From Bacillus xiapuensis (GTDB taxonomy: Bacteria > Bacillota > Bacilli > Bacillales > Domibacillaceae): a stretch of 64,000 bases of DNA. A program made the translations under genes and the position numbers. The notes beneath the pieces were generated by a model that was given only the letters and a program-made list of their open reading frames with translations, was not told where the DNA came from and made no database searches. Location of the stretch: the NCBI RefSeq assembly GCF_002797355.1, contig NZ_KZ454939.1:1149828-1213827 (forward strand), given 5' to 3'. This document shows, in pieces, positions 41,123 through 43,829 of this stretch. Every line of letters starts with the position of its first letter. The stretch's first letter is position 1.

Positions 41123-41398
41123 ATGGCTAAATCTAAAAAAGTTCCGCTAAGAAAATGTGCGGCAACAGGCGAGATGAAAGCAAAGAAAGAAATGGTGCGG
41201 ATCGTCCGTTCAAAAGAAGGCGAGGTGTCCGTGGATCTGACGGGAAAGAAACCAGGCCGCGGCACTTACTTATCCAAAGATAAAGAAGCAGTTGAAATGG
41301 CTAGAAAAAGAGGCGTCTTATCAAGACAGCTAAATGCAGAGGTTCCGGATGCCGTTTATGATGAGCTGCTTGCTCTCGTGGAAAAGGGGAATCATTGA
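41123..41398 (+). CDS. ylxR: YlxR family protein (RnpM), RNA-binding
   Basis: A 91-residue DUF448/YlxR protein with the family pattern [20 protein letters not shown] and [20 protein letters not shown]. It is always next to nusA. It has recently been named RnpM for a role in modulating RNase P, as I recall; older work calls it a nucleoid/RNA-binding protein. AGAGGTGAAG precedes the ATG. Confidence 0.93.
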
Positions 41399-41401
41399 TC
41401 C

Positions 41402-41728
41402 ATGAAGCAGCCGCAATGGGCAGGGTTACTCGGGTTAGCTAATCGCGCAAGAAAGGTCATATCAGGTGAAGAGTTGACAGTTAAAGAAATTCAGAAAGGC
41501 CGGGCTAAGCTCGTATTGCTGTCGCGTGATGCCTCCCCCAATACAAAAAAGAAGATACAGGACAAAGCCGGGTATTATCAGGTGCCTGTAAAATGGGTGG
41601 ATAATCGCTATGCTCTGGGCCAAGCAATCGGCAAAGATGCAAGGGTGGTTCTAGCTGTTTTAGATGCGGGGTTTGCCGGCAAGCTTAGCTCCCTAATTGA
41701 TCAATGTGCGCGAGAAGCCGGTATTTAG
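41402..41728 (+). CDS. ylxQ: YlxQ, L7Ae-family k-turn RNA-binding protein
   Basis: L7Ae/L30e fold with GLLGLANRARKVISGEELTV, KAKLVLLSRDASPNT-like RNA-binding core and ALGQAIGKDARVVLAVLDAG. It has 108 residues, a few longer at the C-terminus (QCAREAGI) than I expect for Bacillus YlxQ. That extension abuts the decayed start of infB. In B. subtilis the orthologue is a k-turn binder, also called RplGA. Confidence 0.93.
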   Translation: MKQPQWAGLLGLANRARKVISGEELTVKEIQKGRAKLVLLSRDASPNTKKKIQDKAGYYQVPVKWVDNRYALGQAIGKDARVVLAVLDAGFAGKLSSLIDQCAREAGI

Positions 41729-41858
41729 CAAAAAAAAGCGAATGAACGCGCCCAAGACAAGAGCGCATCAAGCAAAAGCAGTCTCCGATAAGGAGAAAAG
41801 GTGACATGTAGAAGTCTCTAGCCATATCACTGTTATTGAAGAGGAGGCTATACAAACA
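41729..41858 (+). pseudogene. Decayed N-terminal domain of infB (relic)
   Basis: In other Bacillaceae IF-2 begins with a small domain (B. subtilis MAKMRVYEYAKALNVSSKE... as I recall it). Here frame 41741-41776 reads NERAQDKSASSK, alignable with YEYAK....SSK. After one extra A in AAAA (about 41774-41777) the next frame reads AVSDKEKR, a TGA stop (41802-41804), then [18 protein letters not shown] running in frame into the present protein. The residue spacing matches the intact family throughout. No ATG/GTG/TTG start with a ribosome site exists for it. The alignment is by eye. Confidence 0.65.
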
Positions 41859-43829
41859 TTGGATAAATCGTTAAAGAATAAATCATCTAATCAAACAAAA
41901 GCTGGTCAGAACAAACAAGCAGGCAATAGAGGTAAAGCAGGGGGCAAATCGCCATCCGGCAACAAAAAAGGATTGAATCAAGGAAAAGGGAATAATAAAA
42001 ATCAAGGCCGCAATAAAAATCAAGCCAAAAGAAATAATAAGCCGGCCCCGCAACAAGCCCCAAAAGTGAAAGAGCTGCCGGAAAAAATTACATTCACCGG
42101 TTCGTTAACGGTGTCAGAGCTTGCGAAGAAATTAAACCGTGAACCGTCAGAGATCATTAAAAAGCTCTTCATGGTAGGCATCATGGCAACCATTAACCAG
42201 GAACTTGACAGCGATGCTATTGAACTGATCGCCGGAGAATACGGCGTAGAAGTCGAAGAAGAAGTGCTGATTGATAAAGCGGATCTTGAAATTTATTTTG
42301 AGCAAGAAGACGAAGGGACCTTGATCGAACGCCCTGCTGTTGTGACAATTATGGGGCACGTCGATCATGGAAAGACAACTCTTCTGGATTCCATCCGGCA
42401 CACGAAAGTAACGGAAGGAGAAGCCGGCGGCATCACTCAGCACATCGGCGCTTATCAGATCGAAGCGGGAGATAAAAAAATCACCTTCCTTGATACACCA
42501 GGGCACGCAGCCTTTACAACAATGCGGGCGCGCGGTGCGAAAATCACCGATATTACCATTCTCGTGGTTGCCGCTGATGACGGAGTCATGCCGCAAACCA
42601 TTGAAGCCATCAATCACGCCAAAGCAGCGGAAGTTCCGATCATTGTGGCGGTGAATAAAATCGACAAACCGACAGCTAACCCGGATCGCGTCATGCAGGA
42701 ATTGACTGAGCATGGCCTTGTGCCTGAAGACTGGGGCGGCGATACGATTTTCGTTCCTTTATCAGCCAAGCATGGAGAAGGAATTGATACGCTGCTGGAA
42801 ATGATTCTGCTAGTGGCAGAAGTAGAGGAGTTAAAAGCCAGCCCAGATCGCCGCGCCATCGGTACAGTGATTGAAGCTGAACTGGATAAAGGACGGGGTT
42901 CTGTGGCGACATTGCTCGTGCAAAACGGAACCTTGCATGTGGGAGACCCTATTGTCGTCGGAAATACGCACGGCCGTGTGCGGGCTATGGTCAATGACAT
43001 TGGCCGGCGCGTCAAAACAGCGGGGCCTTCTACTCCGGTAGAAATTACCGGACTCAATGAAGTTCCTTTAGCTGGAGACCGCTTTGTCGTATTTAAAGAT
43101 GAAAAAACCGCCCGCCAAATTGGGGAAGCGCGTGCACAGGAAGCACTGCAGGCTCAGCGAAGCGAGAAAACCCGCGTCAGCTTAGACAACTTGTTTGAGC
43201 ACATGAAACAAGGGGAAATGAAAGAAATAAATATCGTTTTAAAAGCGGATGTGCAAGGTTCGCTTGAAGCGGTGGCGGCTGCTCTGCAAAAGATTGAAGT
43301 AGAGGGCGTCAATGTAAAAATAATTCACACAGGCGTTGGTGCTATCACAGAATCTGATATTATCCTCGCTTCCGCTTCCGATGCCATCGTGATCGGCTTC
43401 AACGTCCGTCCGGATGTGAATGCTAAGCGGGCGGCGGAAGAAGAAGAGGTGGATGTTCGTCTCCATCGCATTATTTACAAAGTAATTGAAGAAATCGAGT
43501 CAGCTATGAAAGGCATGCTTGATCCTGAATTCCAAGAAAAAATTATTGGTCAAGCGGAAGTGCGCCAAACGTTTAAAGTATCAAAAGTGGGAACTATTGC
43601 CGGTTCTTATGTGACAGAGGGCAAGGTGACCCGCAACAGCGGCGTGCGTTTAATCCGTGACGGAATTGTAATTTTTGAAGGGGAAATCGATGCGCTTAAG
43701 CGTTTCAAAGATGATGCCAAAGAAGTCAGCCAAGGCTACGAATGCGGCATTACCATCAAGAACTTCAATGATGTGAAAGAAGGAGACGTTATTGAAGCCT
43801 TTATTGAGGAAGAAATCGAGCGCAAATGA
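41859..43829 (+). CDS. infB: Translation initiation factor IF-2, apparently lacking the N-terminal domain
   Basis: GTPase that brings fMet-tRNA to the 30S subunit. A Lys/Gln/Asn-rich linker (about residues 1-65) is followed by the IF2_N domain ([20 protein letters not shown]), the G domain ([14 protein letters not shown] about 165, [12 protein letters not shown]) and domains II-IV. It has 656 residues. The TTG start has AGGAGG (41842-41847) 11 bases upstream; that site is made from old Glu-Glu-Ala codons. The N-terminal ~45 residues normal for Bacillus IF-2 are missing and survive only as a relic upstream. The result resembles the short internal-start isoforms known for IF-2. Confidence 0.94.

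Follow-up and report, generated by a model that had tools for sequence, protein, structure and literature searches.

The window, that is the whole stretch of 64,000 nucleotides of Bacillus xiapuensis analysed here, contains in its reading frames the gene order nusA-ylxR-ylxQ-infB-ylxP-rbfA, where nusA, ylxR, ylxQ, ylxP and rbfA are names that we assume for these genes, the name infB standing apart from this assumption. Counterparts of the gene row were found by tblastn in the 19-kb regions of the relatives, with ylxP missing from some of them (see below). The Pfam domains of the infB product follow one another as IF2_N (second copy, residues 82-131), GTP_EFTU, EF-G_D2 and IF-2, and domain order together with gene order identifies the protein as a bacterial IF2 (InfB), an essential factor of translation initiation. 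It exhibits one IF2_N stretch compared to two in the protein of the same-genus genome G001: the first copy, N1, located at the N-terminus and the mark of the long IF2 of Bacillales, is absent. The genome gave a single infB match and showed no second N1 elsewhere, only the infB place passing the IF2_N cut-off. In G001-G004, ylxQ is closed by a TGA directly ahead of the infB start, whereas the ylxQ frame of the window extends to a TAG. No sigma-70-type promoter was found at 41380-41900.

Table 1 Features of the ylxQ-infB region, in positions of the window.
Feature	Position	Strand	Remarks
ylxQ	41402..41728	+	Stop TAG 41726-41728 occupies the former position of the infB start, now lost
Decayed remnant of the 5' half of the N1 codons	41729..41805	+	Frameshift and TGA (41802-41804); no start codon or ribosome site left
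6-codon ORF (GTG...TAG), outside the infB frame	41801..41821	+	Candidate from sequence only; AAGGAG 41790-41795, five bases upstream
Conserved block around the predicted start of the short IF2 form, once part of the N1 codons as well	41806..41867	+	62 nt
Possible stem masking the ribosome site	41807..41854	+	41807-41810 and 41813-41819 with 41843-41849 and 41851-41854
AGGAGG, predicted ribosome binding site of the short form	41842..41847	+	11 nt before TTG; duplex of -12.3 kcal/mol with the 16S tail
infB, present form	41859..43829	+	TTG start 41859-41861; IF2 of 656 aa without N1
Second IF2_N domain (N2), retained	42102..42251	+

Remains of N1 between ylxQ and infB

The ylxQ stop and the infB TTG are separated by 130 bases (41729-41858), which the preliminary description had read as N1 across joined frames. 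The frames are as it described: the frame from 41729 reads QKKANERAQDKSASSK, and the infB frame reads AVSDKEKR, the TGA, and then 22 more residues. The similarity to the N1 of IF2 was also found at the level of DNA, the region being alignable base by base to G001 and G004, two genomes of the same genus in which N1 is intact and, on comparison of the infB starts, begins with ATG and GTG, respectively. The alignment showed that one extra base near AGCAAAAGC shifts the frame of the window, and that the N1 start and the ribosome site, both present beside the ylxQ stop in G001 and G004, are absent. The loss of start codon and ribosome site through several lesions, as first proposed, was thus confirmed, with the frameshift and the TGA in addition. 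The identity with G001 was 55/62 bases in the downstream part and 52/80 in the upstream part, compared to 0.35 at the four-fold sites of the infB body; as the match lies far above this value in the downstream part, with 52/80 upstream, a chance resemblance to N1 is excluded. In the same way, 53 of the 80 aligned bases of positions 41724-41805 matched the intact genome G019, with 4 gap columns. The region shows an intact counterpart in close relatives, lesions and a faster change, the features of a decayed coding segment, and is the decayed N1 domain of infB. Past the TGA, the TTG at 41859 is the first ATG, GTG or TTG of the infB frame.

Repeated loss of N1

We then compared the locus with its family, where a search of 24 genomes gave an IF2 match in 23; the remaining one, G017 (77% complete, without match), stands outside the loss counts. 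N1 was broken or missing in 16 of these 23 genomes, namely G000 (the label of the window genome in the comparison set), G002, G003, G023 and the 12 genomes with a match of genus g3 (Domibacillus-type), and was kept in seven (G001, G004, G005 and G019-G022). The lesions differ. A TAA at codon 3 and a lengthened A-run are common to G002 and G003, the latter having further breaks; in G023 the 5' half has decayed and one base is deleted; almost no N1 is left in any of the 12 Domibacillus-type genomes. The mildest case is G002, where the stop comes right after the old start, where the remaining N1 codons form an open frame from a GTG that has no good ribosome site, and where the loss may be incomplete.

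A tree of 12 neighbouring genes, with N1 left out and 29 rows including six outgroups (a quick LG+G4 tree without mixture), required four N1 losses, its starred branches forcing one each for G000, G002 with G003, G023 and g3. Clades named after the tree was seen were rejected: a single loss, with all 16 N1-less genomes as one clade, gave a p-AU of 1e-98, G000 with G002 and G003 a p-AU of 5e-159, and G000 with G023 a p-AU of 2e-43. On the basis of the tree and of the different lesions, N1 was lost four separate times in this family.

In the whole order, an N1 profile match of 1.4e-15 or better was found in 286 of 299 genomes, G002 included, the best match in the window genome being 1.3e-5. The 13 genomes below that level are G000, six of g3, four belonging to genus g48, G272 and G223; the last is 80% complete, has no IF2 match and stands outside the loss counts. 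We took g48 as Priestia because the 16S of G184, one of these four, shares 99.9% identity with rRNA copies carried by plasmids of Priestia megaterium and P. aryabhattai. In the four genomes a clean in-frame deletion has removed N1 and left no decayed remnant, with N2 and the G domain kept; the N1-less infB retains the original ribosome site and TTG, matching the N1-bearing genomes of the genus, of which four, all of about 4 Mb, were read. In G272 (locus L151, from another family) there is no N1 match and the infB frame ahead of the G domain is short, with 149 aa. Priestia and G272 sit in other families that include N1-bearing members, and we count them as two further losses, giving six in the order, four by the tree and these two by family placement.

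As a separate observation on the 16S genes, G184 carries two partial 16S stretches (positions 9-546), and the window genome, besides nine full-length 16S matches, carries two partial 16S-like stretches about 5.8 kb apart (G000:C2:813044-814221 and 818830-820006; model positions 9-1182, gapped).

Two linked genes were also compared. The ylxP gene is missing in all 12 Domibacillus-type genomes (L123-L134), where the infB stop lies 32-34 nt from the rbfA motif vs 297-299 nt, but its loss is not tied to that of N1, as G000, G002, G003 and G023 keep ylxP, and so do G184 and G272 (recognised by eye). The NusA protein ends 45-55 residues past the last GXXG, presumably the NusA motif, in 23/23 family genomes, with or without N1. 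This tail has 45-49 residues in the seven N1-bearing genomes, 45 in G000, G002 and G003, 54 in G023 and 51-55 in the 12 Domibacillus-type genomes; a longer tail goes with some losses and not with all, with no clear link. The acidic repeats of an E. coli-type NusA are larger than a tail of 45-55 residues, which therefore leaves no room for them in the NusA of this family.

Internal start and conserved block

We found an AGGAGG or AGGGGG, followed 11 bases on by a TTG, within the N1 codons of all seven intact family members, at the place of the present start of the window; the TTG is codon 46 in the numbering of G001. This spacing of 11 nt exceeds what is usually optimal. The duplex energies with the 16S tail, a tail present in the window genome, were -10.7 to -12.2 kcal/mol in the seven intact members, and such a site before the TTG gave -10.3 to -14.8 kcal/mol in the 16 N1-less genomes. 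Outside the family, 3 of 65 Bacillales loci reached -6 kcal/mol with an ATG, GTG or TTG there, the best with -7.9 kcal/mol; two loci reached -10.8 kcal/mol but have CTT at the start position. The survey listed 70 loci, 5 of them from the family, the 10 Domibacillus loci of the 80 standing outside the list as they have no N1. The family thus carries an in-frame internal ribosome site and start codon, as an IF2 isoform demands, and, since it is found inside N1 in 7/7 intact members, this start is older than the N1 loss. The preliminary description had placed the AGGAGG correctly on Glu-Glu-Ala codons; its view of a newly made site did not stand, the site being already there in the intact members.

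The region around this start is nearly invariant. Between the window and G019, 58 of the 62 bases of the block were identical, compared to 0.42 at four-fold sites; between G023 and G019, 61/61 bases were identical with 2 gap columns, compared to 47/80 in the upstream half and 0.45 at four-fold sites. Over codons 29-48 of the seven intact genomes, 14/14 informative codons were invariant vs 101/526 later in infB. In 65 control sets from Bacillales (seven genomes each, overlapping, with a mean four-fold identity of 0.38-0.55 vs 0.46 for the intact seven), the invariant codon fraction had a median of 0.11 and a maximum of 0.30, and a run of invariant codons as long as the longest observed appeared in 0/20000 shuffles. 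It is on this run test and on the control sets that the freezing rests, the Fisher window having been picked after viewing the alignment. The block is conserved beyond coding need. As it stays frozen after the decay of N1 in G000 and G023, it seems to be the start of the short form, or the RNA around this start, rather than N1 that maintains its bases. G003 exhibits a deletion inside the block, and its loss looks recent. In the first half of N1 (codons 1-28; L014, L015, L018-L022), 11/19 codons were invariant, above the rest of infB.

The block might also serve chiefly as a regulatory RNA, such as a masking stem, with the start function accounting for its conservation only in part; we regard this as a possibility of lesser weight, compatible with the explanation preferred below. 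The predicted pairing of the ribosome site speaks for it, 96.4% of the cells of the possible stem being paired over 11 non-Domibacillus family sequences (10 distinct), and so does a different hairpin found at the same place in the Domibacillus-type genomes, between the ylxQ stop and an AAGGAGG. This hairpin was 100% paired over 10 distinct sequences, with 3/7 pairs changed on both sides (3 were reached in 21/500 shuffles) and z values of -3.31 and -2.00 in two folded sequences, and the consensus fold also pairs the ribosome site with the last ylxQ codons. Against this, the stem of the frozen block showed no covariation (0/11 pairs changed on both sides), its folding energy was ordinary in four sequences (z of -0.91, 0.26, -0.33 and -0.04), and no Rfam family was above cut-off at 41600-42000. 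That the stem hides the ribosome site is a suggestion only. The 6-codon ORF ends within the 5' arm of the possible stem and its translation could, speculatively, open it. More broadly, we tentatively consider that the end of N1 may double as a masked, translation-coupled start of the short IF2. A ribosome translating the long frame, or ylxQ in the case of Domibacillus, would open the stem in passing and the cell would set the long:short ratio; the overlap would have made N1 disposable and driven the repeated losses.

Probable origin of the short form and comparison with known systems

The explanation that we favour, and hold to be very probable, is that an ancestor used a single gene for both a long and a short IF2 and that some lineages kept only the short one. 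The family ancestor very likely already had the in-frame ribosome site and TTG inside the N1 codons and would have expressed both forms from one infB. As the short form could have done the essential job, the long form would have become dispensable, and four lineages would then have lost it separately. After the loss the old 5' half of N1 decays, while the 62-nt block at the start of the short form stays under selection, as shown by G000 and G023. The window genome would now make only an N1-less IF2 from the TTG at 41859, perhaps regulated by a stem that hides the site until a ribosome passes. A counterpoint comes from Priestia, where N1 disappeared by a clean deletion and the old start was retained, so that N1 loss can proceed without a hidden start. 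The 11-nt spacing, the possibly incomplete loss in G002, the deletion inside the block of G003 and the simple model of the tree also weigh against this explanation.

An origin in the reverse order, in which the loss came first and Glu-Glu-Ala and Leu codons that by chance supplied a ribosome site and a TTG were put to use only afterwards, is unlikely. The site does sit on codons of conserved residues, but a strong site with a TTG in every intact family member, set against the few other loci that reach even the weaker threshold, and the freezing of the codons around it in intact genomes argue for a start that came before the loss. It is highly improbable that the long form is still made from an unusual start by recoding, i.e. 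frameshift plus stop readthrough: some N1 residues are still legible in the separate frames, but both the shift and the stop would have to be passed, the in-frame ATG at 41742, which precedes the TTG, leads into the TGA and is without a recognisable ribosome site, and the 5' half matches intact relatives far less than the block does. Sequencing or assembly errors at a homopolymer-rich site, suggested by A-runs near the frameshift, can practically be set aside, as the preliminary description had argued, since start, ribosome site and frame are all altered and 16/23 family genomes have a broken or missing N1 with different, lineage-specific lesions; relatives with an intact N1, which it had named as counting against it if reads also corrected the bases here, do exist, and read support for such a correction is absent.

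We conclude that N1 loss is wider than one genome and that a spare start within N1 goes far to explain it in the family of the window. Four losses of N1 within one small family, with two further ones in the order by placement, constitute a natural experiment on the role of N1, and the frozen internal start clearly exemplifies a spare start preceding, and possibly permitting, the loss of a domain. Close species pairs with and without N1, together with P. megaterium, a tractable industrial species, make the question of N1 testable. N1 loss in these bacteria was not found in the open-licence literature searched.

In E. coli, infB gives three IF2 forms (alpha, beta, gamma), of which only the long one has the Domain I that holds N1 (PMC12297416, PMC13245402); the isoforms are also treated in PMC11005335. 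According to PMC12297416, Domain I binds NusA, and cells from which the domain was deleted grow 18% more slowly in LB, 15% more slowly in glucose and 41% more slowly in succinate medium; according to PMC13245402, both major forms are needed for best growth. PMC12297416 further calls the function of N1 obscure, presents NusA in E. coli as the first reported partner, with a modelled contact via KH2 and AR1, and describes the IF2 N-terminus and the NusA C-terminus as not conserved, other species needing study. It also mentions more than one IF2 form in Bacillus (citing Shazand 1990).

The system described here resembles the E. coli isoforms in that one gene has an in-frame internal start for a short form without N1. 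It differs in that the E. coli internal starts, at codons 158 and 165, lie far behind N1, whereas here the start lies at the N1 end, and in that E. coli keeps long and short forms, whereas only the short form seems to be left in the window. More than one IF2 form is a trait shared with Bacillus subtilis, reported there and probable for the family ancestor. The short IF2 of B. subtilis starts near codon 94. The 65 non-family loci mostly have no site comparable to that of the family at its position. As in the IF2 of the Priestia megaterium/aryabhattai type, N1 is gone with N2 and the G domain kept; unlike in the window, however, the Priestia N1 was removed by an in-frame deletion that kept the original ribosome site and TTG and left no remnant. 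Mitochondrial IF2 and archaeal aIF5B also have no bacterial N1; these differences are old and deep, whereas in the window the remains of N1 are still readable.
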